From a virus, in the IMG/VR virus record IMGVR_UViG_3300042558_000393, positions 1-36,372 of that record: DNA of 36,372 nucleotides. One strand, 5' to 3'. The notes under the pieces are model-generated. The model was not told the DNA's origin. It was given only the letters and a program-made list of their open reading frames with translations, and did no database searches. The stretch's first letter is position 1; each line of letters opens with the position of its first letter. Positions 1-36,372 of the stretch are shown piece by piece. Made by a program: the position numbers and the translations under genes.

Positions 1-409
1 TCTCACGCTCCGCCATCGCAGCAATCAAAGAGTCCAACTCAGCATCAGTAAGTTCTGTTGCTTTCTTATTAGAACTAATCGTTACCGAAGGCGGAACCAT
101 ACGGTTCGTCGCCTGAAGGTACAACTGGGCAGACTTGGTGTCACCGTCAAGGGCTTTGGAGTACAGCGTGTCTAAGAGCCTTTGAGTGCGCTCTGGCGAC
201 CCCTGAACTTCGTCCACCGCCGCCTTCCACTGGTTGAGGAATACTTCTTTTTTTTCCCAGCGTCGGAGGGTCTTCGGGTCAACATTCAAGAACTCTGCCA
301 TCTTTGCTTTGGACGGTGGTTGGCGTTCACTAGGGGCCGTACAGAGCCAATCCAAATACTGCTGTTGCTGTGCTGTGAGCGTTAACTCTTCGTTTTGTTT
401 CATCACCAT
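1..409 (-). CDS. terS: Small terminase subunit, phBC6A51-type HTH (3' end cut by window edge)
   Basis: The reverse strand reads open from ATG 409 (or ATG 403) to base 1 without a stop, giving 136 codons. Residues ~34-56 (SKAKMAEFLNVDPKTLRRWE) form a helix-turn-helix; a helical middle (ERTQRLLDTLYSKALDGDTKSAQLYLQ) and a tail with LTDAELDSLIAAMAERE follow. This order is typical of phBC6A51-type small terminases, which bind the packaging site and load the large subunit. No clear Shine-Dalgarno is visible. If the molecule is circular, the frame continues at base 36372 for 12 codons (KLRRANWLLQLR) and stops at 36335, giving 148 residues with a basic tail. The position at the head of the virion arm fits. 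The family call is from memory, not a search. Confidence 0.78.
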   Translation of the reverse strand, partial: MVMKQNEELTLTAQQQQYLDWLCTAPSERQPPSKAKMAEFLNVDPKTLRRWEKKEVFLNQWKAAVDEVQGSPERTQRLLDTLYSKALDGDTKSAQLYLQATNRMVPPSVTISSNKKATELTDAELDSLIAAMAERE

Positions 410-4257: not shown

Positions 4258-4303
4258 ATGACAATCGGTTATGGATAAACAAACAATAGAAAGAGAGAAA
4301 GAA

Positions 4304-5356: not shown

Positions 5357-5360
5357 TCAA

Positions 5361-5421
5361 GTTGATAGACCTCTATCAACTTTCCAATAAACATACAAAC
5401 AAACCGTTGGAACAATCCAAC
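5361..5421 (+). repeat. Hairpin repeat copy 5 and a second stem-loop before the amidotransferase gene
   Basis: An exact core repeat lies at 5361-5380, four bases after the amidoligase TAG. GTTGGA-acaa-TCCAAC at 5406-5421 forms a second stem. AAAGGA and ATG 5436 follow directly, so the second stem lies close to the ribosome site. Confidence 0.8.
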
Positions 5422-5435
5422 AGAAAGGACACAAC

Positions 5436-6407
5436 ATGTGTCTGCTTACACTAATACCCGATTATGTCAATCCCGATATGGAACGGTTCAAGCATGCTGC
5501 TTTAGCCAATCCTGACGGCTTTGGCTTTGCCATCTCAACTGGCAAGAAAATAATCACAGGACACGGCATGAACTTTGATGAGGTTGCCAACAAGTTCACG
5601 GACTTGCGCACAACCAATCAAGGCCCAGCCATATTCCACTTCCGTTGGGCTACGCATGGCACGGAGACAGTTGATAACTGTCATCCGTTTGTGCTTGGTC
5701 AAGACAACAGCACGGTGCTAGGTCACAATGGAATCCTGCCAGTAGACATCAAGCCAGGTGATACTCGTTCGGACACAAAGGTGTTCGCTCAAGATATCTT
5801 TCCGAATCTTGGTGGCATCACAGCACTTGATGACAATGATTACTTTGTCAGACTTGCTGCATGGGCTAAGGGTTCCAAGTTGGCTTTCCTCACCGTCAAT
5901 GACGATGCCAAGTATGATTGGTACATCGTCAATGAGGCTGATGGTCATTGGGACAAAGAGATGTGGTGGTCTAACCATTCATATGAAGAGCGTCTCTATG
6001 TGCCATCTACGTATCGCTACGGTATGTACAACTCAGCATGGGATTACGGCTACACCGATTACGATGCCAAGCCGTTAGTCCACATACCATCTTCTGACGA
6101 AGATGATTATGATGATGAGGCTGGCATTCTTCTTGATGAGGCAATCCAACAGATGGAAGTGTACATGACGCAAATCAACGACACCACCGTGTTGCTTGAG
6201 TGCTACACATGCGCACATTCACAACATATCTCAGCAGATGCAGTGTATTCACATTGCCCTGCATGCGAGGCATGTTTATTCTGTGGTGCTCATCATGACT
6301 GTGGATGTTGGCAAGCATTTGATGTGTACAACATTGACTACTACAACCCTCATCACCAGTGGGCTCAGCCAAATAATCAAATGGGCGTACATCCGAGTTA
6401 CTACTAG
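5436..6407 (+). CDS. Class II glutamine amidotransferase (Ntn-hydrolase fold)
   Basis: 323 residues starting MCLL, so Cys2 becomes the N-terminal nucleophile after Met removal, the hallmark of class II glutaminase domains. Supporting motifs are NPDGFGFA 25-32, FRWATHG 69-75, NCHPF 81-85, GHNGI 96-100 and SDTKVFAQD 112-120. These would hydrolyse glutamine to supply ammonia. The last ~75 residues form a separate Cys/His-rich part (CYTC, CPACEACLFCGAHHDCGC), probably zinc binding. With the preceding amidoligase this gives ATP-dependent ligation plus ammonia supply in one operon. No synthase domain such as that of GlmS, PurF or GltB is attached, so the partner must be separate. AAAGGA precedes the start. 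Confidence 0.85.
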   Translation: MCLLTLIPDYVNPDMERFKHAALANPDGFGFAISTGKKIITGHGMNFDEVANKFTDLRTTNQGPAIFHFRWATHGTETVDNCHPFVLGQDNSTVLGHNGILPVDIKPGDTRSDTKVFAQDIFPNLGGITALDDNDYFVRLAAWAKGSKLAFLTVNDDAKYDWYIVNEADGHWDKEMWWSNHSYEERLYVPSTYRYGMYNSAWDYGYTDYDAKPLVHIPSSDEDDYDDEAGILLDEAIQQMEVYMTQINDTTVLLECYTCAHSQHISADAVYSHCPACEACLFCGAHHDCGCWQAFDVYNIDYYNPHHQWAQPNNQMGVHPSYY

Positions 6408-9414: not shown

Positions 9415-9851
9415 TGGATAAGGACAGAGCAATCATTACCCAAGTCTGTGCAAAGATTGCAGCAGACCTAACAGATAAGAGTACGGATGTGGACACACGA
9501 CTCGGTGAGTTCGCAACCTTATTCTCTACCGTCAGCGACATCCTCATGGAGTCGATTTATGGCGAGACAGCAACCACAACACCAACACTTGCAGAACAGA
9601 ACAGCAAGGTAGTGAGCATGGTCAAAGAAGCATTCAACGCTGAAGAAGTATTCACACCGAATGCATCAGCAGGTGTTTCTGTAAAGGGTCAGCAACACGG
9701 TCCTTTGCCAGAGTGGCTAATCAAAGCATGTAAGCGTGATGGCGTAACACTTGTGTACGACAACCGTGACGGTCTTGCAGCAAATCCAAAGCGACCATCC
9801 TTCAAAGCAGTAGATGCTGAGAAGGCTTACTGGCCACCACGGAGCCGATAA
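9414..9851 (+). CDS. Hypothetical protein between nuclease and helicase; candidate ssDNA-binding partner
   Basis: 145 residues, ATG 9414 overlapping the previous TAA. The N-terminal half is helical (IITQVCAKIAADLT...FATLFSTVSDILME). A Thr-rich linker leads to a C-terminal module, PEWLIKACKRDGVTLVYDNRDGLAANPKRPSFKAVDAEKAYWPPRSR, with many aromatic and basic residues. The position between a RecB-like nuclease and a DnaB-like ATPase is where actinophages often carry an ssDNA-binding or loader protein, but no OB-fold is provable by eye. The stop overlaps the helicase start. Confidence 0.65.
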   Translation: MDKDRAIITQVCAKIAADLTDKSTDVDTRLGEFATLFSTVSDILMESIYGETATTTPTLAEQNSKVVSMVKEAFNAEEVFTPNASAGVSVKGQQHGPLPEWLIKACKRDGVTLVYDNRDGLAANPKRPSFKAVDAEKAYWPPRSR

Positions 9852-10867
9852 TGAGACTAACCGCAGAACAAATATCTGCGGGCTGGGAATCGGTGGGGCG
9901 ACCACAAGTCGCTCCACCTTCCGAGTATCGGATGTACTCACCACTCTCTGAGGCTGCTGACTCTTTCGTAAGATGGGCTCAGTCGCCACAGGAGCGTGTG
10001 CATTTAGGTATTGCTCGCATTGACGCAGAGATGCGTGGTATTGCGGCAGGAGAAGTGGCAATGATGTTGGGCTTTGCGCATGGTGGTAAGACACTCTTAC
10101 TACTTCACGCATTGCGTCACAACCGTGACAAGCACATCGCCATGTTCATTCCTGACGAGCCACGACAACTCGTATTGACCAAACTCACCTGCATGCATCA
10201 TCGCATTGATGCACGAGAACTGGAAGCACGAGTAGCAGCAGATGACAAAGATGCCATCGAATTGCTACGCAGAACGGCTGAGGAAGATTTCCCCAACCTT
10301 GCTGTGTTTGACCAGCCACTAACTTCATCCGACATGGAACGTGCCTACAACGAGGTATGTGATGTGTGGGGTCAAGCACCTGAACTTGTAGTTGTTGACT
10401 ACTTGGATTTGGTAGAAGCAGGAGAGACAGTTCCGGATAAGGCAAACTTCATCAAGTCATTCGGGCGTAGGCACGACATTCCAATGTTGGTCTTACACCA
10501 GACATCACGCACCGCAGGTGCGGATGGCAAGAAGATGACCATGAGTTCAGGCTCATACGGCGGTGAACAACAAGCAACACAAATCATTGGTGTTCGCCGT
10601 AAGAAGTATGAGATTGCTGCTGAGATACATGAACTGACACAGAAACTTGACCGTTCGCATTCCGAACGAGCACAAGACCGATTGGACTTCTTGCGACATG
10701 AACAGCGTGTTCATGAGTACACAGTCACAATCAACCTGTTGAAGAACAAGCGTCCAGCAGGACAACTCGTAGATGACATTGACTTTGAGTTGGATGTTGC
10801 CACGGGTCGTCTTACCGACCTCAGCGGTGCACTGCCCGACCAGTACCATCAGGAGTCTGCTTTCTAA
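9851..10867 (+). CDS. DnaB/RecA-like replicative helicase ATPase
   Basis: 338 residues. Walker A is GFAHGGKT at 74-81, Walker B is LVVVDYLDL at ~179-187, and LHQTSR at 215-220 corresponds to the DnaB/RecA sensor region. A Tyr/Gly-rich SSGSYGGEQQATQIIGVRR motif and a late MLKNKRPAG-like segment (INLLKNKRPAGQ) fit the DnaB C-terminal domain. The long helical insertion (~250-300) is unusual. It lacks the DnaB N-terminal domain, as many phage helicases do. With the primase encoded next it probably drives the phage fork, using the host polymerase. TAATG overlap with the primase gene. Confidence 0.82.
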   Translation: MRLTAEQISAGWESVGRPQVAPPSEYRMYSPLSEAADSFVRWAQSPQERVHLGIARIDAEMRGIAAGEVAMMLGFAHGGKTLLLLHALRHNRDKHIAMFIPDEPRQLVLTKLTCMHHRIDARELEARVAADDKDAIELLRRTAEEDFPNLAVFDQPLTSSDMERAYNEVCDVWGQAPELVVVDYLDLVEAGETVPDKANFIKSFGRRHDIPMLVLHQTSRTAGADGKKMTMSSGSYGGEQQATQIIGVRRKKYEIAAEIHELTQKLDRSHSERAQDRLDFLRHEQRVHEYTVTINLLKNKRPAGQLVDDIDFELDVATGRLTDLSGALPDQYHQESAF

Positions 10868-11763
10868 TGAATGATGCAATAGAAACATTCATGGATTTAT
10901 TCCAAGGCAGAACTGATGCGTATGGAAGTTGGGAAGGTTCTTCTGTCAAGAAGCCAGTGTCATACGATAACTTTGCTCGCCATCTGTACGGAGAGGAACT
11001 CATCGGGATATATCCCTTGCTCGATAACTCAACCGTCAGGTGGGGATGCTCAGACATTGATGTTGATGACATTGACTCAGCCAGGAATCTCCAGATGGCA
11101 CTACACACCAAGAGCATTCCATCGTTCGTAGAACGAACGGTAAAAGGCTTCCATGTGTGGGTGTTCGCCACCGAGTGGATACCAGCACCAATCATGCGCA
11201 GAGCATTCTTGTCTGCACATGAAGCCATTGGTCTGCCACCCAAGGAGGTCAACCCAAAGCAGGAGGAATGCACAGGGCTTGGTAACTACGTCAGATTGCC
11301 GTACCCCAACGGCATGAATGCAGAACCCGATGTTCGCTACATCATGAACCACGATGACAGTCCCATGAAGTTTGATACCTTCCTGAAGATTGTGTCCGCA
11401 CAGCGAGTTGATGCCGAGAGGCTGAGACCGCTTGCTGAGTTGCATCGTGTCAGACAGAAGGCTTTACTTGAGCCAGCAGTCATGACAGCCTCTGTCCAAG
11501 AGGCGTTGGATTATGTAGATGCTTATGTCGCCACCATCTGGCGCAATGGTCCTCTTGACGGTCGTGACCGTTCCAACACTTTGTGCAAGATGGTGCACAA
11601 GATGCACCAGGGCAATGTGCCAATGAAGTATGCTTATACCATCTTGAAGGATGCTGACAAACGATGGGGGAAGTTTCACCTCAGAGTTGATTGCGTTGAG
11701 CAACTGGTGAAGATAGTAGAAGACATCTACGGGCAAGAAACCAAGGAACCATTCAGACCATAA
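10867..11763 (+). CDS. Archaeo-eukaryotic-type primase (TOTE/phage AEP-like)
   Basis: 298 residues, ATG 10867 overlapping the previous TAA. The core reads ELIGIYPLLDNSTVRWGCSDIDVDD (metal site D63/D65, then D67/D68), KGFHVWVF 93-100 (the sxH-type motif with His96), EVNPKQ 127-132 and GNYVRLPYP 139-147. This order fits the AEP domain found in TOTE conflict systems and in many phage and plasmid primases. The C-terminal ~100 residues (RSNTLCKMVHKMHQGNVPMKYAYTIL...) resemble the helical PriCT-like tail. It should make primers for the adjacent helicase; no DNA polymerase gene is present, so whether it also extends DNA is open. Confidence 0.82.
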   Translation: MNDAIETFMDLFQGRTDAYGSWEGSSVKKPVSYDNFARHLYGEELIGIYPLLDNSTVRWGCSDIDVDDIDSARNLQMALHTKSIPSFVERTVKGFHVWVFATEWIPAPIMRRAFLSAHEAIGLPPKEVNPKQEECTGLGNYVRLPYPNGMNAEPDVRYIMNHDDSPMKFDTFLKIVSAQRVDAERLRPLAELHRVRQKALLEPAVMTASVQEALDYVDAYVATIWRNGPLDGRDRSNTLCKMVHKMHQGNVPMKYAYTILKDADKRWGKFHLRVDCVEQLVKIVEDIYGQETKEPFRP

Positions 11764-13730: not shown

Positions 13731-14073
13731 AGAAGTACGTTGCCCATGGCCGCTTGTGTCCGTTCATTGGCGTGATGCCTTTGATGGCGAGAACGGCTGG
13801 ACAGACATCGAGAAGTACGAACCAAAGGAAGCCACCGTTGTGACGGTGGGTTGGCTTTGGGCTGATTGTCTACGGGGTTATATAACCGTGGTCAACTCAT
13901 ACTTTCCTGATGAAGTACCAGACCTCAAGACTGCTGGGATGCCAGTTCACATTCCTGTCGGAATGGTGATTGACATTATTGTTCTGGAGCAGGCTCTGGT
14001 GAAACTGGAGGACTCTGAGGAATCACAAGATTCTGAAACGCCTGTTTCATCTTTGAAGCGTCGTCTGCCATAG
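13720..14073 (+). CDS. Hypothetical Trp-rich protein (117 aa), last gene of the plus arm
   Basis: ATG 13720 lies within the previous gene's end, with AAGGAATC nearby. PWPLVSVHWRDAFDGENGWTDIEKYEPKEATVVTVGWLWADCLRGYITVVNSYF reads as a compact beta-rich domain, and VHIPVGMVIDIIVLE is a further strand-helix. The C-terminal ~35 residues (EDSEESQDSETPVSS...) are polar and overlap the opposite-strand endolysin gene by 98 bases. From memory, similar short proteins occur in other phages, but no function is known. Confidence 0.62.
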   Translation: MKTKEVRCPWPLVSVHWRDAFDGENGWTDIEKYEPKEATVVTVGWLWADCLRGYITVVNSYFPDEVPDLKTAGMPVHIPVGMVIDIIVLEQALVKLEDSEESQDSETPVSSLKRRLP

Positions 14074-14500
14074 CAGGAGAAATTTCACAATGTATCCAGT
14101 CGCCACCTGGTGCTCCTGTGATTTCTTGTTTCTTGTATGACGACCATGCATTACGGTCACAACGCCAGCCTCGACCGTGTGGCTTCGGGAAGTAATCCAA
14201 TATTGCTTCCAGACCAAGCAACTCTGCATTGCTTGTAAGAATGTTCATCACACGGATGGCTTCACGCCTTCCGTTCTTCACACCCTTCTTGGGAGGCATG
14301 TGTCTGTAGGAGAGGTCAACGGCACGACCAGTGGCGTGAACCGACAGTGACTCTTTTCCACGCATGGTTCGTACACCAAAGTCACCGTTGTTCCAGAGAG
14401 CACCATTGGAGAGTTTGATTACCTCATCAATGAATACTTTCATGCCTGGGCGCAAGCCTTTGGCTTCGCCATCTTTGTTGCCAGTGTAATGTCGTTTCAT
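13976..14500 (-). CDS. Endolysin, peptidase M15-type (D,D-/L-Ala-D-Glu peptidase-like)
   Basis: 174 residues; ATG 14500 has AAGGAG upstream. SVHATGRAVDLS gives H55-x6-D62, and GGDWIHCEIS gives H137: the zinc triad of M15/VanY-type peptidases, with Arg59 as the usual substrate contact. It would cut peptide stems or cross-links of peptidoglycan. The C-terminal tail (PQSPPVSPEPAPEQ) is Pro-rich and has no recognisable binding domain. There is no signal peptide, so it needs a holin or virion delivery. It is the last gene of the minus arm, directly after the giant virion protein, and its 3' end overlaps the plus arm. Confidence 0.82.
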   Translation of the reverse strand: MKRHYTGNKDGEAKGLRPGMKVFIDEVIKLSNGALWNNGDFGVRTMRGKESLSVHATGRAVDLSYRHMPPKKGVKNGRREAIRVMNILTSNAELLGLEAILDYFPKPHGRGWRCDRNAWSSYKKQEITGAPGGDWIHCEISPAMADDASKMKQAFQNLVIPQSPPVSPEPAPEQ

Positions 14501-14502
14501 TG

Positions 14503-17500
14503 TTATTCTCCTTGTAGTGCTTTTTCTTTAGAAACAATTTTGTTGATGTTCGCATTCCTGCGCTTCAATTCGGAAAGCATCTCTTGCTCTTTAACCTGAC
14601 GACCAGGTACACCCAAGAAACCAAGTAGTGGGTTCACGTATCCACGTTGCTGGTAGGTGTCGATAGATGGTGTTAGACGCTCTGCTGTTCCGAGGAATGG
14701 TATGAGGTTTCTCAAAGCGTAGAACGCTTTGTCGTCCACGAAATTCTTACCATCACGAGACTCGCCGTAGCCGGCAGCAGCAAGGAACGGCTGCAACAGT
14801 GCACCAGCACCACCCTCAACTTCAACTGGCTTGTCAGAGAACTGTCTGTTGCTGTACAACTGCCTGCCACCCATCAACTCGACTGGTACACGAAGCAGTG
14901 GGTTGACGTTTGCTAGGAATCTTGTTGGGTCTGAAAGTTCTTGAATTTGCTGACCAACACGATTGAATCCAAAGTCTGCAGTTGCGTACACATTGTTTCC
15001 GAATGGGAGTTTGAATGCACCAATCTCTGTCATCCACTGCGGGATAACATCGCCTTCTTCGTCAGCACTAATGTTGCGCTTGATGTTGTTGTAGATTGCA
15101 TAAGCCTTCGGGTTGAGCCACATGTTTCCAAGTTGCATTGGCAAGTTCCTAGATGTCCACATCCAAAACGGAACAATCTGACGCATGTATTGGTCGGCTG
15201 TTGATACGTCGGTGTAGTCAATGAGATACTTGCGTACTCGTGCAGAAGCAGAGTTCGCATCAAGACCTTGAGAGACACCATCCCATGCAAGCATGAATCG
15301 TGAATGATTCTCAATCCACTTACCAAACTCTTTGGACTTCTTGGTTCCCTTGGGGGCAAGACCTCTGTCAAAGAAGTCATTGGACAAACCACCACCAGCA
15401 CCAAAGAATGCATCTATGGCATCTCGTGCCTTCTGCTTCATTGCTGCTGGCACAGCATCTGATGCAATCCACTGCTCGATTGTTTTTCCAGCCTTGGATG
15501 CCTCAAGCCAAGACCTACTCATTGACAGACCTTCGTTCAGGTACTTCAACTCAGCACCAGCAGCGAACAACATAAAGGTGTTCGACATACCGTTTCTGAT
15601 ATGGAAGCCAGGAGTCAACGTGGCGTAAGCCTTGAAGAACTTTGTGTACTTGCCCATGAACTTACTGAGTTCTCTAACCATCTGTGGTTCGTTGAGTCTG
15701 TGTACGTTCTGGAATATCTCAGCAATCTCTTTTCTCACACCAATATCAGGGAAGAACTTGCTCAACTGAACAAATCCATCATCAAATGTTTTTACGATGT
15801 TGAACTGCTCTGGCGGCACCTTGCCGACCAGAGACAGTGGCAAAGTAGAGCCAGTGAACTCCATGTTCTTCAAGCCGGCAGCAAACGCTGCCTCTTGTTG
15901 GAACGCTGTCATCTCAGATGACTTCATCATGTAGTTGTTTCTAGCGTCAACATAAGTTCCAATAATTGTTCTAATTGGTTGAGGAATGGACTCACCAGAT
16001 ATCTGTTGAATCATGTAAGACGAGTCATCAATATGTTGGTCTACTTCGGCAATCCAATCATCAGAACCAGCCTTTATTCTTCCACTGCTCTTTGATGATG
16101 TCCAGTACCTAGTGTCTTTTGCCATCTTCTGAATGTCAGCCAATGTCTTCTTGGTTTCTTCAATTTGTTTCGGGCCGTGTTCTGCAAACGTAACAGCAGC
16201 ATCGTAAGCCTCCTTGGCTTTCTGATGCGCCTTTGATGCTTGAGCAAACGATTCACTTGACTTAACAGCCTTTTGATTAGCCTTGTTTGTCGGCAACAAC
16301 ATTCTTTCTTTAACTTCCATTGCTTTCTGCAGTTGTTGCATCTGCTTCATCTTCTCGGCAAGAAGTTCCTTGCGACCAGCACTCATCTGGCTAAGCAATT
16401 CAAGAACATCGTTCTGACGACCCTGTTCAACAATCAAATCGAACCTCAAGTTGTTGAGGAGTTTCATTGTTTCTTCGGTCTTTGTGTCTGGAATGAAAGC
16501 ACGACGGTTGATTGTCTTGTCGCCAATCACACCCTTCGCAGCACCAGTCCTATCTGCTTTCCAAGCATCGATAGCACGTTGCTCTGCCTTCATTTCCAAC
16601 TGACGCTGTGTTCCACCAGCCTCTACAGTGCTTTTATCTATTCTTACATATTCAGCCCTGACTGAATCATCAAACATTTCAAACAAGTCTGCCAACTCTT
16701 CTTTGGTTGGCTCACGACCAATGTCGGACTTAAGTCTATTCTTTAGGCGGACACGAGCATCCTTTAGTCCCTTGGCATCAATCTCACGCAATTCCTTGGC
16801 GACACCCTTTGCCTCATCTGCCAGTCCTTTACCGTACTTTGTTTTTGGAACAGCAGTAGTTGTTCCCAGTTCTGCAAGAACTTGTTCTTGCAATCTGGAA
16901 ACCTTTGTATCGTTTGCCAAGATGGTTCCACGAAGTCTTGAAATTTCAGCACGAAGAAACTCTTGATGGTCTAACACACCCTGCCTGTTTGCAATCCAGG
17001 CATCATGCATTCTTGTATCAAGTTTTGATTCAAGTTTCTTGTATTCATCCAGCAACTGCAACTCTTCGCTAGAAGACCAAGATTCAGACAAGAAATTTCT
17101 ACGAATTCTAGTATCAGAAACTTTTGTATAAACCATAAGAGGTTGGTTGTATTTAGTGCGTTGATTTACAAACTCTCTTATTGCTTCATCAGAAGTGTAT
17201 GGCTGCCTCTCTACCGTTGAACCAATTTGCCTCATGTCCGGACCATAAGAGTCGTTGATTGGTGCTCTTGTCGTCTTCTTCGGCTTTAGACCAATGCTTT
17301 CCTGGAAGTCAATATCATCAAATGAATCATGAAGTTTGGCAAACTTGTTTAGAGCAGAAGTCCTTGAATCGTGCTGAAGTATCTGTTCTTCTACTGCAAG
17401 GATAGTGTCGTCAATCTTTTGCAACTTGTCATCAAAACCTACAGTTGACTTACCAGTTCTCGCAAAGGAACCACGCTGTTGAAGAAGCCTCTTCCTCTGT

Positions 17501-20500
17501 CCAAGGTATGCGTTCCTCTGTGAACGTATACTCGCTATGTTCGTTGGTCGTAGTGGGTCGTCCCACAGAGAGTTCCATTCTGCTCTGGTAAATCCCAAAG
17601 CAACTGCAGACTCTTCATCTAGTCGTGCAAGTTGCAAGGCGAATCTGTGTTCGCTTTCTCGCTTTAGCGCACGAATGTATTGCGGAGTTGAAGCAACATC
17701 GTCAAGTTGTTGCTGAATAACAATATTCTTTGCCGCTTCTTTGGCAACCTTCTGTGGTTCTTCAACAGGCTTTGCAGCCCTTTCCGTTGCTCTCTTTAGT
17801 TTTCTTTCTGTAGCCCTTAACTCGGAGTTGTAATCCTTGCCCTCTCCAATAACTCGAAGTAGGTCATCTGCATGTTCTTCCAATGCGTTAGCCATCGCTG
17901 CGGGTCCACGCAGTTCTGTTCTGAGTAACCAAGCACCAGGAACATATTTGCCATCAACAAAGTTTCCAACTTTGCCATCGAGCAAAACTTCCGTAGGCAA
18001 GTTTGGCTCATCGACAAGAGTGGTTAGTCCGTTAATTCTGCTGTTGATTCTTGCGTCAAGACGACCAAAGAATGAATCAGATTCGAGCACAGTCCTGTAC
18101 TGCCTAGCACCTCTGGTTGCGGAGAAGTCGTAAACTTCTCCACCAAGAATGCTTCCCCAGAAATCAGTCATTGCTTTTTCGCTACCACGGAATGTCCTCT
18201 TCAACATTCCAACATAGCCGTACTCACCATCCTGCGAAGAAGCAAGAGCAGACAAACGTTTCCTTAGTTGACGTTGGTTCTTTGTTCCAACAACTTTTTT
18301 AGCAGCGTCAGATGCCAACTTTCTGTCTACTTGCATTTGTTTGATGATTTCGTCGTACCTATTTTTTAGGTCTTTTGCAATATCAGAGTTGTTGGTTTTT
18401 TCCATCAATTCATTAATGGATTTTTCGATGTGTCCTCTTAATTTTTGATATTGGTAATCAGCAGACTCTGAAGTCTTTGGAACGTACTCTTCGATACCCT
18501 CATCTGTAAACGTTGTTACTCTGGCTCGTCTAGTGGTAGGTCTTCCGAAGTCTTTATATATACCAACCTTTTGGAGTTCTTGAATTACAGCACTCTCTAG
18601 AGAAAGAGCATCTGGATGCTTGTAGAACAATTGGTTAATGTTTCCAGTCCTTGACTCAAGCCAAACTGCTTCAATCTCTGGGAAGTGTTCTTGAAGCAAT
18701 CTTTTTTGTTCAAGCAATTTTTCCAACTCTTTGGTTGTCCTACCCTTTGTCGGCGGTTGTGCTCGCAGAATCTTGGCAATTTCTTCCATCATTATATTCG
18801 AGCGACTGATGTCGTCTATCTTTAACTGTTCAACAAACTCAGCACGAAGTTGCTGATTTGTTGGAACACCGCCAATTTTATCAATTAGATTTTTTTCTAT
18901 TTGAGTTAATTGTGCTGGAGTTAAATCACTATATTTTCTTGTCCTTAATCCAAAACTATTAATCTTTGAGTACATATCAGAAAACAATTCTTTCAACGAT
19001 TTAGATTCATTCATGAAATCTAAAGCAGCGTCAAGTTCAGGCTTGGCAACCGCAGAAAGAATTGCGTTGTACATATTTTCTGTTGGTGCAACTCCGAACA
19101 AATCAAGTGTCTGCATCAATCGCTTGAAGTTGTGTACGGTTTCACGGTGTAAGTAGTACTCAGATATACCAGATGACAAATCCGCCATAACATCCCTAAC
19201 ACCATTCAGCGTTACTGCTGTTTGTGGTGCAGACATGTCATGTCGATTTAATCTAGAAGATAGTCTTTCCTGTAGTTTTTTTTCTGAAGTAATTCTTTTT
19301 TCTACTAATTTTCTTCCTTCGTTTAATTTGGCTAATTTCTTTTCATCCATATCACCAAAGTAACCAATTTGGCCATCAATTTCGAATGTTGTGGAAATTT
19401 CATCAAGTTGTTCTAGTTGTGACTCTAGGTTCGCAAGTTTTTGAACAGACCTGTTATATGCAATTGTTCCAGAGTCTCCAATCTCACCAAAGATGTATTT
19501 CTCTGTTGCATCAGCCTGTCGCAACAACTCAACAAGGTTGGAGAACCTTGTCTGAGTTGCACCAGTTGTTGACGCTTCTTGGAATCCTTTTACCAACTGT
19601 CCAGCGAGTTCTGAATCACTTAGCACGTCACGCACAACCAACCAGATACCTGCTTCACGAAGTTCACGTAGGTCGGTTGGTGTAACTGCCGGCTTGGCCA
19701 AACGCTTGCGTATATCTGATATCTTTATTCTTGACAACATTTCTGCGGACACAAGACCGTCAGGGTCGAGTATGGACTTCAGTTGTTTTAGTTCTAAAGG
19801 AATATCCTTAAGTTCTTTTGCTCCCCATACTTTCCTAATGTTTAACGCATTCATTGCGGGTAGACGTTTAGCCCTTTTACCATCGTAACTTATTGCATCA
19901 AGAATTTCATCGTAAACATCGGAACCATCAATACTTGTTATGTCAATTTTTCCAGCAATAATGTTGTCCATAAAGTTGTGCAACTGCATAACTTTATTCC
20001 ACTGGTCTTGTGAGTCCTTCAACGCTGCAGCGGCAGCCTCCATCTTCCTATCAAGTGTTTTGATGAGTTCATCAACGGTTGTTAGTTTTGCATCAACCTT
20101 ATTGCTGAGAGAATTAAGGATTAATGTTTCGTCTGGTGTGATTGTTTTGTTTTTTGTTTTTTCGGTGAGCAACTTAATAGTTGTTTTTTCTTCTGGTGTC
20201 AACATTCTTCCGATTACTTCAGCAACCTCATCACCACTTGCAATTAGTTCCCCACCAGTTCCAACAACAACTTGTGCTTGTCCAGGAGCATCTGTTAGTC
20301 CAACACCCATCCTTGAGTATCGCTCTGAATAGTTGTTGACCAAATCGTCAACAGCCTTCATCAACTCATCGTATGTATCCTGAGAGTTCTGTATACTTTT
20401 GTTAAGCACATCGATAACATGTGTCTGCCCATCAAGAGAATCCTTGAAAGCATTCCATGCTTTTGCCCTGTCGTTGAATGCCTTGAGCATCAACTCTTTG

Positions 20501-22638
20501 GCATTGCGAATACCAGCAAGTCTTTCTTCTGGGGTTCCAACTTGTTTGGCCTGCTTTAGCAACTCATCAAGTTGTTTGCCAACTTGACCAGTTTCTGCAG
20601 CCATTGAATCCAGGTGCAACTTTACTGCTCCCAATGCATTTCTTCCAGCCAAAGCCATTTCAGCATGTGCCTCAGTTACTGCACCCTCAAGCATCTTGGC
20701 GTGGTCAGCAATTGACCTAATCCATTCCTTTGTGACCGAACCCATTGCAACAGACTCAGAAAGCATTCCACCCTCTTTGGCAATACGCATAAACTCCGCA
20801 GTTCCATACTGCGAAGAAAAGTGCTCACCATACTTCTGCATAATCTTGTTGATGTCTGTTTCAAAGAACTGTCCCTTAAAACCACGATTCGATTCACGTG
20901 CTATCTTGTTCAGTGTGTCAAGACCACCGAGCACATCTTCTTCGGTCAATGTCTTTCCAAAAAACTCTGCACCCTTGACAAGATTTCGTGACTGAAACGA
21001 TGCAGTCGGGTCTGTCATGTTTACCTTGAGATACTTCAAGATGTCTTCGGCTCTTGCGGATGACATGCTGTTAATCCAATCACGTGCCTCGTCTGTCATA
21101 AGGTGAGGCAGGTAGTCTTTGATACCCTTCATTTGGAAGTTTGGGTCTACTAGTTGATACTTGGATTCAATGTCAACCCGCCAACCCTCGAATGCTGCAC
21201 GAAGTTTGTCGTATGCAGTTCTTTCGGTTGGGGATAACTGGCGTGGCCAGTTCAAAGCACCATTGGGCTTGAACTCTGGAGTATCCAAAAACTTGTAGAA
21301 GTCTGCACCAACAGCCTTAACATCTGGTTCTTCAAGCAATGGTGCAACAATCTTTGCGTAACTATCAAGCATCTGTGCCTGTAGACTTCGTGCTGCCTGG
21401 TCTGCACCCTCAAGACGAACAGCCCACCGAGCAATCTGTGGGTCCATCTTCTGCAATCTTCCATCAATGTACATCTTGCCAGTTGCAAGACCACGACGAA
21501 GTTCAGTCATGTTCCTAGATGCCGATGTTCCCTTGGGCATAAAGTTTTCTGCAAGCCATTCCAAGGGACGGCTACCCATGATGCCGACACGAGAGGAAAC
21601 TAAACCAGTCTGAATTGCTTCAGCAACTGGACCAGTAAATGGAATCCTCTTTTGTGTGCCTGCAATATACAAACCAGTTTTCTTGAGACCAATCTTTGCT
21701 GCAAGTTCCTGACCCTCAACAGTGCTATCAAGAGCAACTCTTCCTCGTTTTGCAACATCTTGCACAAGTTCTGGTGATGCACCAAGTTTGTCGGCAAGGC
21801 CGGCAAGATTGGTGCGAGAGGTACGACCAGTAATTCTTTTGCCGATTAAAGCCCTAAGTTTCCTTCCCTCTTGAGCACTTGCTACACGTGTTGCTTCTGC
21901 AGCAACTTCTTTTGCTACTGCTCGTTCTATGTATGCTGGACCAAGAGCAGCAAGTTCCTCTGCTGTTTCAACAACAGCCTTACTTGCAATACCCTTAGCC
22001 GTAGCACCAACCTTTAGGGCAGCGGTTGCTGGTATCGAGGTACCAAGTGTTAACCAGTTGATTGGGTCAAGAACCAAGTCACCGAACAAACCAACAGCCC
22101 TACCCCAGTTTCCCTTCATCGGGAATGCTGTACCAAATCCGTAGGTTACATCTTTGGTTTGATTGAACCAATCACCCAAAGATGCTTTCGTGTTCTTATC
22201 GGTGTCAAGAATATCTGCCACCTCACGAACACCAGAAATTACCGCACGACGACCAGTGTCAAGAACCATCAACGGTGCAAGTGCAACCTTAGCAACTGGG
22301 TTGTTGAGTATGTTCCCAAGAACTCCAAGCGCACCAGATGGTTCACTCTTGCCAGCAGCAGCACTATTGATTTGGTCCGTAAGTTTTGGATAGTTTACTG
22401 ACTGCTGTGTTGCGTAGTTAGTAAGTTGGTTTGACTTCATGCGTACAGCGGGTGAGCCACCAACCTGTGGCGCACCAGCGACAGTGGATGTAAGGGTGGG
22501 GAATTTAGAAGCAGCAGCAGGTGGCGTAGCCGTTCGACCAGTCGGAGCAACGCTCGGCATCTGACTTGGAGCAGAGCGTGTATAGGACTGCTGTGTCAGC
22601 CCCTGAAGTGCATTAAGTAAATCTTGTTGTGTGGCCAT
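14503..22638 (-). CDS. Giant internal virion protein (2711 aa), putative DNA-ejection protein
   Basis: About 22% of the window. A disordered Ser/Pro/Ala-rich N-terminus leads to a segment with hydrophobic Gly/Ala helices (~110-230: VAKVALAPLMVLDTGRRAV; GLFGDLVLDPINWLTLG). Most of the rest is long charged helices (~350-2150), likely coiled coil. A distinct C-terminal ~450 residues includes LTPGFHIRNGMSNTFMLFAAG and IVPFWMWTSRNLPMQLGNMW, which look membrane-active. Podoviruses place such giants last among the ejection proteins (compare T7 gp16). No lysozyme, RNA polymerase or protease motif was found by eye. The TAATG overlap with the preceding gene shows coordinated expression. Confidence 0.72.
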   Translation of the reverse strand: MATQQDLLNALQGLTQQSYTRSAPSQMPSVAPTGRTATPPAAASKFPTLTSTVAGAPQVGGSPAVRMKSNQLTNYATQQSVNYPKLTDQINSAAAGKSEPSGALGVLGNILNNPVAKVALAPLMVLDTGRRAVISGVREVADILDTDKNTKASLGDWFNQTKDVTYGFGTAFPMKGNWGRAVGLFGDLVLDPINWLTLGTSIPATAALKVGATAKGIASKAVVETAEELAALGPAYIERAVAKEVAAEATRVASAQEGRKLRALIGKRITGRTSRTNLAGLADKLGASPELVQDVAKRGRVALDSTVEGQELAAKIGLKKTGLYIAGTQKRIPFTGPVAEAIQTGLVSSRVGIMGSRPLEWLAENFMPKGTSASRNMTELRRGLATGKMYIDGRLQKMDPQIARWAVRLEGADQAARSLQAQMLDSYAKIVAPLLEEPDVKAVGADFYKFLDTPEFKPNGALNWPRQLSPTERTAYDKLRAAFEGWRVDIESKYQLVDPNFQMKGIKDYLPHLMTDEARDWINSMSSARAEDILKYLKVNMTDPTASFQSRNLVKGAEFFGKTLTEEDVLGGLDTLNKIARESNRGFKGQFFETDINKIMQKYGEHFSSQYGTAEFMRIAKEGGMLSESVAMGSVTKEWIRSIADHAKMLEGAVTEAHAEMALAGRNALGAVKLHLDSMAAETGQVGKQLDELLKQAKQVGTPEERLAGIRNAKELMLKAFNDRAKAWNAFKDSLDGQTHVIDVLNKSIQNSQDTYDELMKAVDDLVNNYSERYSRMGVGLTDAPGQAQVVVGTGGELIASGDEVAEVIGRMLTPEEKTTIKLLTEKTKNKTITPDETLILNSLSNKVDAKLTTVDELIKTLDRKMEAAAAALKDSQDQWNKVMQLHNFMDNIIAGKIDITSIDGSDVYDEILDAISYDGKRAKRLPAMNALNIRKVWGAKELKDIPLELKQLKSILDPDGLVSAEMLSRIKISDIRKRLAKPAVTPTDLRELREAGIWLVVRDVLSDSELAGQLVKGFQEASTTGATQTRFSNLVELLRQADATEKYIFGEIGDSGTIAYNRSVQKLANLESQLEQLDEISTTFEIDGQIGYFGDMDEKKLAKLNEGRKLVEKRITSEKKLQERLSSRLNRHDMSAPQTAVTLNGVRDVMADLSSGISEYYLHRETVHNFKRLMQTLDLFGVAPTENMYNAILSAVAKPELDAALDFMNESKSLKELFSDMYSKINSFGLRTRKYSDLTPAQLTQIEKNLIDKIGGVPTNQQLRAEFVEQLKIDDISRSNIMMEEIAKILRAQPPTKGRTTKELEKLLEQKRLLQEHFPEIEAVWLESRTGNINQLFYKHPDALSLESAVIQELQKVGIYKDFGRPTTRRARVTTFTDEGIEEYVPKTSESADYQYQKLRGHIEKSINELMEKTNNSDIAKDLKNRYDEIIKQMQVDRKLASDAAKKVVGTKNQRQLRKRLSALASSQDGEYGYVGMLKRTFRGSEKAMTDFWGSILGGEVYDFSATRGARQYRTVLESDSFFGRLDARINSRINGLTTLVDEPNLPTEVLLDGKVGNFVDGKYVPGAWLLRTELRGPAAMANALEEHADDLLRVIGEGKDYNSELRATERKLKRATERAAKPVEEPQKVAKEAAKNIVIQQQLDDVASTPQYIRALKRESEHRFALQLARLDEESAVALGFTRAEWNSLWDDPLRPTNIASIRSQRNAYLGQRKRLLQQRGSFARTGKSTVGFDDKLQKIDDTILAVEEQILQHDSRTSALNKFAKLHDSFDDIDFQESIGLKPKKTTRAPINDSYGPDMRQIGSTVERQPYTSDEAIREFVNQRTKYNQPLMVYTKVSDTRIRRNFLSESWSSSEELQLLDEYKKLESKLDTRMHDAWIANRQGVLDHQEFLRAEISRLRGTILANDTKVSRLQEQVLAELGTTTAVPKTKYGKGLADEAKGVAKELREIDAKGLKDARVRLKNRLKSDIGREPTKEELADLFEMFDDSVRAEYVRIDKSTVEAGGTQRQLEMKAEQRAIDAWKADRTGAAKGVIGDKTINRRAFIPDTKTEETMKLLNNLRFDLIVEQGRQNDVLELLSQMSAGRKELLAEKMKQMQQLQKAMEVKERMLLPTNKANQKAVKSSESFAQASKAHQKAKEAYDAAVTFAEHGPKQIEETKKTLADIQKMAKDTRYWTSSKSSGRIKAGSDDWIAEVDQHIDDSSYMIQQISGESIPQPIRTIIGTYVDARNNYMMKSSEMTAFQQEAAFAAGLKNMEFTGSTLPLSLVGKVPPEQFNIVKTFDDGFVQLSKFFPDIGVRKEIAEIFQNVHRLNEPQMVRELSKFMGKYTKFFKAYATLTPGFHIRNGMSNTFMLFAAGAELKYLNEGLSMSRSWLEASKAGKTIEQWIASDAVPAAMKQKARDAIDAFFGAGGGLSNDFFDRGLAPKGTKKSKEFGKWIENHSRFMLAWDGVSQGLDANSASARVRKYLIDYTDVSTADQYMRQIVPFWMWTSRNLPMQLGNMWLNPKAYAIYNNIKRNISADEEGDVIPQWMTEIGAFKLPFGNNVYATADFGFNRVGQQIQELSDPTRFLANVNPLLRVPVELMGGRQLYSNRQFSDKPVEVEGGAGALLQPFLAAAGYGESRDGKNFVDDKAFYALRNLIPFLGTAERLTPSIDTYQQRGYVNPLLGFLGVPGRQVKEQEMLSELKRRNANINKIVSKEKALQGE

Positions 22639-33612: not shown

Positions 33613-35199
33613 TTACTCTCTTGTATTAAAAGCACCGATTGGTGTCTTCTTTGGTTTTTTTTCCTTAATAATGAATTGTTCCCACCATCCCAAGGTATTC
33701 CTTGGAGGTGCTGGGTCGAAACGGTACTCAGGAAGCCAAACATACTTTAGCATCTGATTTGTGATTGCCAACGACATCACCCTGTCGTCGTGTGGACTGC
33801 CATGCATCTTGCCATTTGACTCACGCACAAATGTGCGTAACTCAGCCATTGTCAAAGCGTCATACAACGAGATGCCTTCATCTCTGATGGCGGCATTGAG
33901 TTCGTCAATTGCCAGTGGCTTGGATACCGAGGTTGTTCTCCAACCCATTGTCTCACTAGCCACGGGATTCCTGGCGTTCATCTTGCGCTGTCGGTAGGTG
34001 TTGCGATAACCAATCCTTTGCAGACCCTTAATCGTGGTTAGACCGTGGTTGTTGGACTCTACGCCAATCAAGGCGTGGTTGTAGTAATACCCCAGAGCAG
34101 AAAGAATCTCTTCGCCAAACAAGTCGGGGTCAACGTGACCGTGCCAATGAGCAACCATCATTCCTGTGTCTGCAGAAATTACATGGGCTGAACTGTAGTC
34201 ACCATGACCAAGACCTTCTGCAACGTCAGCACCAATGACATAGTTTTCGTGCAGGTTTGGGAAATCCCAAACTGCTAAAGCACCACCATCTTGAATGAAG
34301 TTGTAAACATTTTTTCCGTAGCCTTTCTTTAAGTATCCACGGTCTGGGTCAATCGGTTCAATTGCACGGATTGCCTCCAGGTCGAACACAGGACGGCCAG
34401 AACGGATAAAGGCTTCTTCTGGGTCTGATGGGTACTCTTGCGCCAACTGCCAGTCTGGGAGGTCACGCTTCTTGGCTTCGTACCATGCTTCGTCACGGTC
34501 TCCAGCAGACCAAGGAAAGAATACTCCTTCGAATCGGTTGGTTTTGTTTTGTGAGCCAACCCATAGCGTGTGGAATATGTTGCCCTCACCATTGGCTGTG
34601 CTCAAACAAATAACACGACCACCTACGTCAGCAATTGGTTCAATAGATGCCCATGCTTCATCGGGGTTGGGCAAGAACGCCATTTCGTCGATTACTACAC
34701 GGTATACCGCTTCACCACGAGCAGGGTCGTTTCCTGATGGCAAAGACTCCAAGGAAGAGTCGTTTGCAAAAACCATCTTTAGTTGGTTGTCAGACAGTAA
34801 GTCTGGACCACGTACTCTCATCCAGGGTGGCAACATCTTGTAGCCATATTTGGTTTTTTGCAGCAACTTGGATGCTTCACGCTCCGTGCGTGAGAGCATT
34901 ACCGTAAAACGGTCAGGCCAGAAGAATGTCTCCCAGAATGTGAACGCAGAAGCAAGAGTCGAGAATCCAATCTGACGGGCTTTGAGCACAATGCTATATC
35001 GTGCGTCAATCCACACACGAACGGTTTCTTCTTGCGCTTCACGCAAAGCAAACTTGATACGCCCACGCTCAGGATGGCGGATAGTCCAATAGGTAGAACA
35101 GAAATGCGAAAATGCAGCCACCAATTCTTCGGTGGTTGCACCTTCTGCACCTTTACACTTACGCCACTCCTTCTCGTTGAGAAGGTCTGTAAGTTCCAT
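33613..35199 (-). CDS. terL: Large terminase subunit
   Basis: 528 residues; ATG 35199 overlaps the previous TAA. ATPase: KARQIGFST 73-81 (Walker A-like of Terminase_6), VVIDEMAF 168-175 (Walker B with D171/E172), CLSTANGEGN 198-207 (coupling motif). Nuclease: VIGADVAEG (D325), IGVESNNHG (E381) and HDDRVMSLAI near 485 give the RNase H-like triad. Together with the partial small subunit it cuts and packages DNA through the portal encoded two genes later. Length and motif order match headful- or T7-type podovirus terminases; packaging mode is not decided. Confidence 0.9.
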   Translation of the reverse strand: MELTDLLNEKEWRKCKGAEGATTEELVAAFSHFCSTYWTIRHPERGRIKFALREAQEETVRVWIDARYSIVLKARQIGFSTLASAFTFWETFFWPDRFTVMLSRTEREASKLLQKTKYGYKMLPPWMRVRGPDLLSDNQLKMVFANDSSLESLPSGNDPARGEAVYRVVIDEMAFLPNPDEAWASIEPIADVGGRVICLSTANGEGNIFHTLWVGSQNKTNRFEGVFFPWSAGDRDEAWYEAKKRDLPDWQLAQEYPSDPEEAFIRSGRPVFDLEAIRAIEPIDPDRGYLKKGYGKNVYNFIQDGGALAVWDFPNLHENYVIGADVAEGLGHGDYSSAHVISADTGMMVAHWHGHVDPDLFGEEILSALGYYYNHALIGVESNNHGLTTIKGLQRIGYRNTYRQRKMNARNPVASETMGWRTTSVSKPLAIDELNAAIRDEGISLYDALTMAELRTFVRESNGKMHGSPHDDRVMSLAITNQMLKYVWLPEYRFDPAPPRNTLGWWEQFIIKEKKPKKTPIGAFNTRE

Positions 35200-35468
35200 T
35201 AGATTTTCTTAGGGGCTGCCTTCTTGGCTGCAATCTTCTTTGGGCTTGCACCAAAGGCTGCATCAATTTCATCCTTGGTCAAAACGCCATCGATGCTTGC
35301 CTTGGCAAGACCTTCGGCAACCTTGAAAATTGAGACTGCACCAGCAATCAACGCTGACTTCCAGACTTCCAAGTCGGGGGCGATAACAGCAGCACCAGTG
35401 ACAACGCCGAGGGCGTTAGTCAAAAACAGTGCAACAATACGGCCAGCAATATCTTTTGCCTTATTCAT
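35199..35468 (-). CDS. Small membrane protein with basic tail, holin candidate
   Basis: ATG 35468 (or the adjacent ATG 35471) follows AAGGAG. MNKAKDIAGRIVALFLTNALGVVTGAAVIAPDLEVWKSALIAGAVSIFKVAEGLAKASIDGVLTKDEIDAAF: two hydrophobic helices (~8-30 and ~37-55) separated by a short loop, then an acidic linker and a KKIAAKKAAPKKI tail. This layout is common for phage holins in actinobacterial phages. It would open the membrane for the M15 endolysin. It overlaps the preceding membrane ORF by 8 bases and the terminase gene by one. Confidence 0.65.
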   Translation of the reverse strand: MNKAKDIAGRIVALFLTNALGVVTGAAVIAPDLEVWKSALIAGAVSIFKVAEGLAKASIDGVLTKDEIDAAFGASPKKIAAKKAAPKKI

Positions 35469-35628
35469 CATTCTCCTTGAAGTAAACACCAAGTAGGTGT
35501 ATGAGTATTGCGATAAAGGTAATTCCCCAACCCAATGTCTTAGTTTGACCAGACAACGTAATAAGCACCATTCCAGTGCCGGCCAGTGTCCAAGTCAATG
35601 CATGGATTTCGGAAAGAATCTTCTTCAC
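35461..35628 (-). CDS. Small two-helix membrane protein (55 aa), holin-like; GTG start
   Basis: Read directly from the gap: GTG 35628, then KKILSEIHALTWTLAGTGMVLITLSGQ with a first hydrophobic helix, GWGITFIAILIHLLGVYF as a second, and a charged end KENDE. The last codons contain the ribosome site of the next gene. No strong SD precedes the GTG, so initiation may couple to the upstream gene ending at 35646. The two-helix build next to another membrane protein suggests a holin/antiholin pair. Confidence 0.55.
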   Translation of the reverse strand: MKKILSEIHALTWTLAGTGMVLITLSGQTKTLGWGITFIAILIHLLGVYFKENDE

Positions 35629-35645
35629 ACCATTAGGTGCATTCG

Positions 35646-36338
35646 TTACGGTCTACGGGTACCTGCAGCAGCAATGGCTGCGCCAGCAGCAACAGCAATA
35701 AGGGTTCTACGGGTGCTTACGGGGATGTTGCTACCTAGTGGAACGTAGTTGTCAAAGCCAGGGCTGAAGATGTTGATTTCTTCTTCAAAGGCTTCACGAA
35801 CCTCGGCTGGTGCATCCTGCACAGCCTCCACAATGGCTTGTGCCTCTTCTTCGGAGAGATTGTCTACCTCGATGGCCTCGAACACAGCAGTAGCCTCTTC
35901 TGAGGAAAGAGATGCCACCACCTCTGCGCTTTGGGCTACAGCCACAGCCAGTTCTTCGCTAACTTCCATACCTTCCTCAATTGACTCAATTGCGGTTAAC
36001 AACTCCTCATCGTTGAGTTCCTCAACTGGGGTCTCCTCAAGAGGAATGGTCTCCTCTGTTACCTCATCAGGCAACACCTCTGTGGGGGTAGTGTCATCTG
36101 GCAGTTCTTCGACAAGCGGTAGGGTATCTTCTGTCTCAACAGTAGGGTCTGTGTCTGGAGGTTCCAATGGGATTGTTTCTTCAACTATTTCTTCAGGCTC
36201 TTGGATGGGTTCCGTATCTTCTGTGGTTGGCTCTTCTATGGGTTCAGGCTCAACCACTGCAGGTGGTTGCGCTACTGGTGGGGATACGTATTCTGTGGTG
36301 GTTGTGGTTTCAACGGACGTCGAGGTTTGGGCCGTCAA
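35646..36338 (-). CDS. Acidic Thr/Pro/Glu-rich protein with C-terminal membrane anchor (frame open to right edge)
   Basis: 230 residues from TTG 36338; the frame is open through base 36372, so in a linear reading it is 5'-partial. If the molecule is circular, a stop lies just across the junction and TTG 36338 overlaps the small terminase stop as TTGA. The N-terminal ~105 residues are Thr/Pro/Glu repeats (PEPIEEPTTEDTEPIQEPEE...IPLEE); the middle is acidic helices (LTAIESIEEGMEVSEELAVAVAQSAEVV; LSEEEAQAIVEAVQDAP). The end, RRTLIAVAAGAAIAAAGTRRP, is a short membrane helix with Arg on both sides. A membrane-tethered extended protein next to holin candidates might help lysis, but the function is unknown. 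No SD is visible. Confidence 0.6.
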   Translation of the reverse strand: MTAQTSTSVETTTTTEYVSPPVAQPPAVVEPEPIEEPTTEDTEPIQEPEEIVEETIPLEPPDTDPTVETEDTLPLVEELPDDTTPTEVLPDEVTEETIPLEETPVEELNDEELLTAIESIEEGMEVSEELAVAVAQSAEVVASLSSEEATAVFEAIEVDNLSEEEAQAIVEAVQDAPAEVREAFEEEINIFSPGFDNYVPLGSNIPVSTRRTLIAVAAGAAIAAAGTRRP

Positions 36339-36372
36339 CGAAGTTGTAGTAACCAGTTCGCTCGACGTAGTT

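Follow-up and report, generated by a model that had tools for sequence, protein, structure and literature searches.

At the right end of IMG/VR virus record IMGVR_UViG_3300042558_000393 – a linear record of 36,372 bases, referred to throughout as the window – lies the 3′ part of a gene for an acidic protein, here called CT, followed by two small membrane-protein genes (M1 and M2) and by the gene for the large terminase subunit (TerL). In many of its relatives CT sits in a lysis cassette, M1 is tied to it as a dedicated two-helix partner, and its N-terminal head is interchangeable, being swapped between phages. There is, in our estimate, about an even chance that CT acts as an accessory protein in the lysis brought about by a probable actinobacteriophage and that it engages a conserved glycan of the envelope. 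We infer this role in lysis; the order of the domains, the pairing with M1, the location in the cassette, the swapping of heads and the purifying selection described below were computed.

The initial annotation of the window, made from its letters alone, had described a protein of about 230 residues at the head of an operon, and both points proved wrong. The gene is cut by the end of the record: an IMG/VR contig, L002, which differs from the right end of the window by 2 mismatches over 3,673 nt, contains the full CT gene (L002:4117-5454, 445 codons), and the 204 codons that lie beyond the window edge correspond to a predicted export signal, a PA14 head and the start of a stalk. We call the window's copy a 3′ gene fragment because its frame lacks a start of its own and the L002 relative supplies the full gene; TTG at 36338 is merely the first start-like codon within the open frame. 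The gene order in L002 – the small terminase subunit (TerS), about five genes including a tail-fibre-like one (protein confirmed at L002:2075-2491), CT, M1, M2 and TerL – likewise places TerS and the tail-fibre-like gene ahead of CT. A circular record, with the CT gene starting at TTG 36338, was considered and dropped: the joined ends looked suggestive, but six relatives hold 3.06–3.67 kb between both ends. L002 itself carries about 3.1 kb that is missing between window positions 1 and 36372, and the window record has no exact end repeat of 10 bases or more. The record is broken in the variable stretch that separates TerS from the head portion of CT.

From the right edge of the window, the four genes follow one another on the minus strand, nearly touching or overlapping: M1 and M2 share 11 or 8 nt, depending on whether M2 starts at 35471 or 35468, and M2 and TerL have a single base in common, at 35199, where the one stops and the other starts. 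A pair of overlapping genes for small membrane proteins ahead of terminase had been predicted from the outset and is indeed there, each product having two hydrophobic segments. The Thr/Pro/Glu-rich, acidic character of the larger protein was equally borne out, as the first 130 CT residues in the window comprise 28 T, 19 P, 30 E and 8 D with no K or R (net charge -38), and so was its Arg-flanked hydrophobic C-terminal helix, the sequence there reading RR-TLIAVAAGAAIAAAGT-RRP.

An AlphaFold2 model of the L002 protein, built from an alignment of 21 relatives (overall mean predicted local distance difference test score (pLDDT) 65.3, predicted template modelling score 0.38), consists of a β-rich head (residues ~28-170; pLDDT ~90 with weaker stretches at 65–80), a mostly disordered stalk of ~145 residues (176-321), a bundle of helices (325-402) and, beyond an extended juxtamembrane stretch, the C-terminal helix (422-441). 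Among 99 complete CT genes, 96 have a strong N-terminal hydrophobic stretch – a count biased upwards, since start codons were picked, wherever possible, so as to give such a stretch. A permissive A-x-A type match is present in 98 of the 99 encoded proteins, and a lipobox-like motif in residues 6–45 in none. The N-terminus looks like a signal peptide. A hydrophobic C-terminal 15-mer occurs in 109 of the 111 separate (unfused) CT genes, and in the cell the protein would be exported and anchored by its C-terminal helix. Complete CT relatives span 322–1341 aa. Pfam matches to RskA_N and FANC_SAP fell below the cut-off and were set aside.

The relatives come from IMG/VR scans that returned 361 matches to the C-terminal part of CT, at least 539 to M1 and 283 to one M2 subfamily, the best 80 of each being examined. 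The counts refer to 125 records with CT, including the window and phage DSL-LC01; L001, L082 and 21 repeat-contig loci were left out, and the later loci L148–L303 stand outside the counts. M1 is the next gene after CT in 111 of these records, is fused to it in 13 and goes undetected in one (L062). The best 80 loci of the M1-seeded scan comprised 76 new locus identifiers (many on contigs already seen), and CT lies directly upstream of M1 in 73 of them, the other 3 being cut too short to tell. With the M2 subfamily as the seed, both CT and M1 were found in 78 of 79 new loci – the exception begins just upstream of M1 – and 76 of the 79 had an endolysin-model match. M1 itself has a TLSG core that is invariant in all 23 members compared; at the hydropathy threshold used, 16 of them show two segments and 7 show one, the window's M1 having two. 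No holin family appeared among the Pfam matches of these 23 members. A single-sequence fold of the fused CT-M1 part was poor past the helical bundle and did not resolve M1.

To describe the surroundings of the pair, profile models built from hand-picked seeds – for CT, M1, M2, TerL, VanY and M15b, the last being an M15-like endolysin candidate – were run on all loci fetched by then. M2 resembles r1t-type holins and may be termed holin-like: 7 of 18 family members match the holin family phrog_443 (best 2.3e-07), one matches Pfam Phage_r1t_holin (5.3e-04), and all 18 have two hydrophobic 17-mers. All 18 also match phrog_26427, labelled ‘nuclease’; 7 of them match the holin family as well, and the label is probably wrong.

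Endolysin neighbours were counted in the 98 records whose downstream sequence extends to 2,600 nt or more. In 47 of these VanY is near, 41 having it no more than 2.5 kb downstream and the other 6 no more than 4 kb upstream; 23 have an M15b candidate downstream. Three records with VanY ~4 kb downstream (L074, L076 and L077) were counted as having neither, and another three (L075, L078 and L083) yielded no endolysin by these models in the stretch searched. After clustering of CT at 80%, 15 of the 32 representatives have VanY near, 5 M15b and 12 neither. Five of six neighbouring proteins submitted to Pfam matched VanY above the cut-off (L023, L039, L047, L071 and L062; E 2.2e-10 to 3.2e-16), those of L039 and L062 with PG_binding_1 in addition; the sixth, from L027, belongs to the window's M15b type and had no Pfam match. 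The initial annotation had proposed that the window's genes form an unusual lysis cassette, and relatives in which CT and M1 lie beside a holin-like M2 and VanY or the M15-like candidate support this. As a separate observation, a gene flanked by VanY and TerL (L023:5909-6319) encodes a 136-aa exported protein that by eye is lysozyme- or transglycosylase-like.

An endolysin had also been announced about 21 kb away from the window's cassette, and an M15-like candidate, M15b, does lie at that position; a firm endolysin identity for it was not upheld, as its family matches were all sub-threshold. Of five M15b proteins submitted, two gave sub-threshold M15 or endolysin matches and three gave none, while a comparison of the M15b and VanY profiles aligned 36 columns around SxHxxGxAxD (probability 39.7%, E 0.0003). 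The main argument for the candidacy of M15b is its place in the cassettes of relatives, and the case for a lysis cassette stands as before with this weaker call, since the VanY records suffice to carry it. In the sister clade M2 and TerL enclose a VanY gene, which the window lacks at this point. Ten related records comprise five with M15b only (73–79% identical to the window's), three with VanY only, two with neither (fragments of 19–20 kb) and none with both. When relatives were searched for the trio of CT, M1 and M2, as had been suggested, M1 was found to adjoin or be fused to CT nearly always and M2 to be a common neighbour, but sister phages add VanY to the set; the window's trio looks like what a cassette of four genes would leave behind once its endolysin had been exchanged; that the change went this way is our inference. 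The M15b candidate is immediately preceded in the window by a very long open reading frame of the same orientation (14503-22638, minus strand; 2,711 aa).

The head of the L002 protein matches Pfam PA14 (PF07691) over residues 47-160, at 25.3 bits against a cut-off of 24 (E 1.4e-05). The best structural match of its model is the PA14 domain of the anti-sigma factor RsgI3 (6qe7; Z 18.7 over 142 residues, root-mean-square deviation 1.9); sugar-bound Marinomonas PA14 scores Z 16.3–16.7 over 151–157 residues, and the yeast flocculins (Flo1/Flo5) and Epa adhesins score Z 12.6–14.6. Asp-Asp-Gly, a motif that takes part in the binding of Ca and sugars in PA14 domains, is invariant in all 21 PA14-headed proteins. 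By its fold, the CT head may bind sugar. Nearly identical C-terminal parts carry either PA14 or an unrelated head, termed B (19–28% identity), and other relatives have a head termed C, an L-type lectin (L062, Pfam 1e-40) or a head that we take to be PPC-like from its sequence pattern. The B and PPC-like heads gave no Pfam match, so that a sugar-binding fold is seen in several heads and not in every one. Head ends could be placed in 74 of the 99 complete genes – 41 PA14, 11 B and 22 PPC-like – with stalks of 98–413, 187–260 and 110–165 residues, respectively.

Selection was gauged from the ratio of nonsynonymous to synonymous polymorphism (pN/pS) in three groups of 4, 6 and 6 records. Mean values for the heads were 0.07–0.16, versus 0.12–0.24 for TerL, and the conserved C-terminal part of CT gave 0.04–0.21. 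CT, M1 and M2 behave as real genes, because their values lie between 0.00 and 0.25 in the three groups. A conserved ligand for the heads fits better than an arms race.

Table. Features of the window discussed in the text, with positions in the 36,372-base record
Feature	Position	Strand	Basis or remark
CT protein, 3′ part (241 codons + stop)	35646..36371	-	Frame open at window edge; full gene L002:4117-5454
Acidic Thr/Pro/Glu stalk, portion within window	36021..36371	-	Composition; net charge -36 (L002 residues 177-321); pLDDT <50 over most of 176-321
Helical bundle	35778..36011	-	AlphaFold2 helices, L002 residues 325-402, pLDDT ~60-90, mostly ~85; conserved in alignment A1 (19 sequences)
Juxtamembrane segment, NIFxxxFDxYVPxGSxIPVxxRR type	35721..35777	-	Nearly invariant in both alignments, A1 (19 sequences) and A4 (18 sequences)
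Predicted C-terminal membrane helix, Arg on both flanks	35661..35720	-	Modelled helix, L002 residues 422-441; 15-mer hydropathy 1.99
M1, 55 aa, two hydrophobic segments, TLSG core	35461..35628	-	phrog_29041, function label unknown
M2, 89-90 aa, two hydrophobic segments and charged tail, r1t-type holin-like	35199..35471	-	Holin matches of family members
Terminase large subunit (TerL)	33613..35199	-	Pfam Terminase_6N; PHROG terminase large subunit
M15b, M15-like endolysin candidate	13976..14500	-	Seed of M15b model (one of two); ~21 kb from cassette
Terminase small subunit (TerS), cut by left end of record	1..409	-	phrog_2538, 5.8e-06; final 400 nt 392/400 identical to L002:1237-1636

Elsewhere in the window, on the plus strand, two neighbouring genes at 4271-6407 match Amidoligase_2 (above the cut-off) and a class-II glutamine amidotransferase (weakly, below it), and are possibly an amide-ligase pair, while a primase-like protein at 10867-11763 (AEP-TOTE match, 7e-20) adjoins a DnaB-like helicase at 9851-10867.

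A tblastn search of 50,697 named phage records with the C-terminal part of CT had DSL-LC01 as its sole match; M2 and the PA14 head had none among these records. Cellular copies were absent when 84,980 species genomes were scanned with two sequence patterns, at limited sensitivity: the A1 pattern returned no relative and the A4 pattern a single one, a phage cassette on a contig labelled as a Gammaproteobacteria metagenome-assembled genome. By eye this cassette (L148:2-3212) has a CT-M1 fusion, a VanY-like gene and M2, and it is probably there through a binning error. DSL-LC01 is a metagenome-assembled lake phage that carries whiB genes and whose authors predict an Actinomycetia host (PMC10611076). 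A second source describes freshwater phages possibly of Acidimicrobiia and Nanopelagicales (PMC6802176), and the terms ‘endolysin’ and ‘holin’ are absent from that text. The environmental phages that bear CT probably infect Actinomycetota, albeit with thin direct evidence on hosts. Searches of the open-access literature in PMC brought up two papers that mention LysZ, a protein discussed below, and no recognisable account of the CT family.

How might such a protein assist lysis? The signal peptide would export CT and then be cleaved, and the C-terminal helix, together with M1, would keep the protein in the cytoplasmic membrane. From there the disordered acidic stalk could reach out through the cell wall and present a head with a carbohydrate-binding fold – PA14 here, an L-type lectin or other folds in relatives – that would engage a conserved envelope glycopolymer. 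Upon the action of holin and endolysin, the outer layer might then be destabilised or pulled away and the progeny released, as has been proposed for LysZ, a lysis protein of Corynebacterium phages to which we return below. It is the PA14 head, absent from the window's own portion of the gene, that shifts the likely mechanism towards such LysZ-like engagement of glycans.

Several points weigh against this account. Synteny is no proof of a lysis function, and a late operon could also carry a protein that masks receptors or excludes superinfecting phages. The window's own M2 matches neither holin model, only the ‘nuclease’ family phrog_26427, and the matches of its M15b are weak and sub-threshold (Peptidase_M15_4, 0.034; phrog_17001 endolysin, 0.029). 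Neither VanY nor M15b is nearby in 28 of the 98 records, 12 of which form the window's own subclade, whose M15-like candidate lies about 21 kb off, and the records as a whole are heavily redundant. M1 is found fused to proteins of up to ~1,100 residues, which suits a role as an anchor or partner better than one as a pore. Finally, the sugar-binding fold of the head reveals no ligand, and no fold was recognised for the B, C and PPC-like heads.

Were CT instead a receptor mask or a superinfection-exclusion factor comparable with T5 Llp, the displayed lectin would cover the receptor glycan of the host, sparing the progeny from debris and excluding sister phages. A protein that is predicted to be exported and to face the surface, with a sugar-binding fold, would suit this purpose, as would late expression beside the lysis genes, and in the window's clade CT lies downstream of a tail-fibre-like gene. 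A matched mask would be expected to co-vary with a receptor-binding partner, and the protein compared for this was a Gly-rich one, judged by eye to bind the receptor (phrog_2295, the family it falls in, is of no known function). Encoded upstream of the cassette (L002:2897-3781 and relatives), this protein is highly variable between close relatives. Co-variation was not seen in the 22 records covered: L087 and L092 share 89% of the C-terminal 150 residues of the Gly-rich protein and have unrelated heads (27%), and phages with heads 91–99% identical have Gly-rich proteins only 18–58% identical (C-terminal 150 aa). Heads that vary independently of the Gly-rich protein and that show purifying selection instead of diversification speak against receptor masking tuned to that protein, and we regard masking or exclusion as unlikely.

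Another possibility, a quite unlikely one, is that CT times lysis from the outside in, after the manner of the T4 RI antiholin or of RsgI-type proteins. On the outer side of the cell the head would read a glycan or the condition of the envelope, and the juxtamembrane segment and M1 would set the firing time of the M2 holin. The tie between M1 and CT, up to fusion at the CT C-terminus in 13 of the 125 records, the conservation of the juxtamembrane segment and the anti-sigma factor RsgI3 as the best structural match of the head all point this way; yet a contact between M1 and M2 would have to be assumed, the architecture alone suggests sensing, and the wide range of PA14-headed stalk lengths is a poor fit to mechanical coupling. 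An extracellular-sensing timer would be unlike any lysis regulator known to us and, if true, would be widespread in uncultured actinobacteriophages. We hold it equally improbable that CT is a virion component or a cell-aggregation adhesin, unrelated to lysis. Its sugar-binding-fold head near a tail-fibre gene and its flocculin-like layout of head, Thr-rich stalk and C-terminal anchor would be in keeping with such a function, but many distant relatives place CT beside an endolysin and a holin-like gene, the two pattern scans of genomes, of limited sensitivity, turned up no cellular copy and just one phage cassette, and a signal peptide and a membrane anchor are unusual in virion proteins.

As a putative accessory lysis protein, CT can be set beside several known systems. 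Its head shares a fold with Marinomonas PA14, Flo1/Flo5, the Epa adhesins and RsgI3 (Z 12.6–18.7), and yeast flocculins have a similar layout, with a head, a Thr-rich stalk and a C-terminal anchor; unlike these proteins, CT is viral, lies in a lysis cassette, is predicted to have a transmembrane rather than a glycosylphosphatidylinositol anchor and has other heads in place of PA14 in some relatives. T5 Llp is a receptor-masking lipoprotein, and CT is likewise a phage-encoded envelope protein with predicted export, but it lacks a lipobox-like motif, has a head with a sugar-binding fold and does not vary that head with the Gly-rich neighbour. M2 and the endolysins of many relatives come near r1t-type holins and VanY endolysins, whereas M1 and CT matched neither in the searches made.

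The passage of phages through layers outside the peptidoglycan in monoderm and actinobacterial hosts is poorly known, LysZ being a recent case. CT brings to this question a large family (the 361 IMG/VR relatives of its C-terminal part) whose lysis cassettes contain a dedicated two-helix partner and a modular head that can be exchanged and that has a sugar-binding fold wherever a fold was recognised; it gives testable predictions on the envelope polymers that restrain lysis and offers a handle on lysis in uncultured hosts. As described in PMC13056207, LysZ of Corynebacterium phages CL31 and Cog (McKitterick, Lyerly and Bernhardt) is a lysis protein of 177 residues with one helix in an N-in/C-out orientation, proposed to act on lipoarabinomannan-type polymers, which are lipid-anchored glycans outside the membrane. 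Like LysZ, CT would be an accessory lysis membrane protein of Actinomycetota phages, with one membrane helix and a proposed engagement of glycans; unlike LysZ – compared here by its description only – it is longer (322–1341 aa among complete relatives), has the opposite predicted orientation (a signal peptide plus a C-terminal helix), and possesses modular heads and M1 as a partner. With the u-spanins, of which T1 gp11 is an example, and the i/o-spanins it would share a wall-spanning plan, one end in the cytoplasmic membrane and a location in the lysis cassette. The initial annotation had likened the protein to a spanin in its layout and not in its family, which holds as geometry, given the predicted export, the ~145-residue stalk and the C-terminal helix, and fails for a lipid-anchored u-spanin: no lipobox-like motif was found in the 99 complete proteins, a head with a sugar-binding fold takes the place of the lipid anchor, and the host is probably monoderm. 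CT would, as far as its sequence can tell, be a variant accessory lysis protein that belongs in neither the LysZ nor the u-spanin family, and together with M1 it suggests an unrecognised step in the escape of phages from their hosts.

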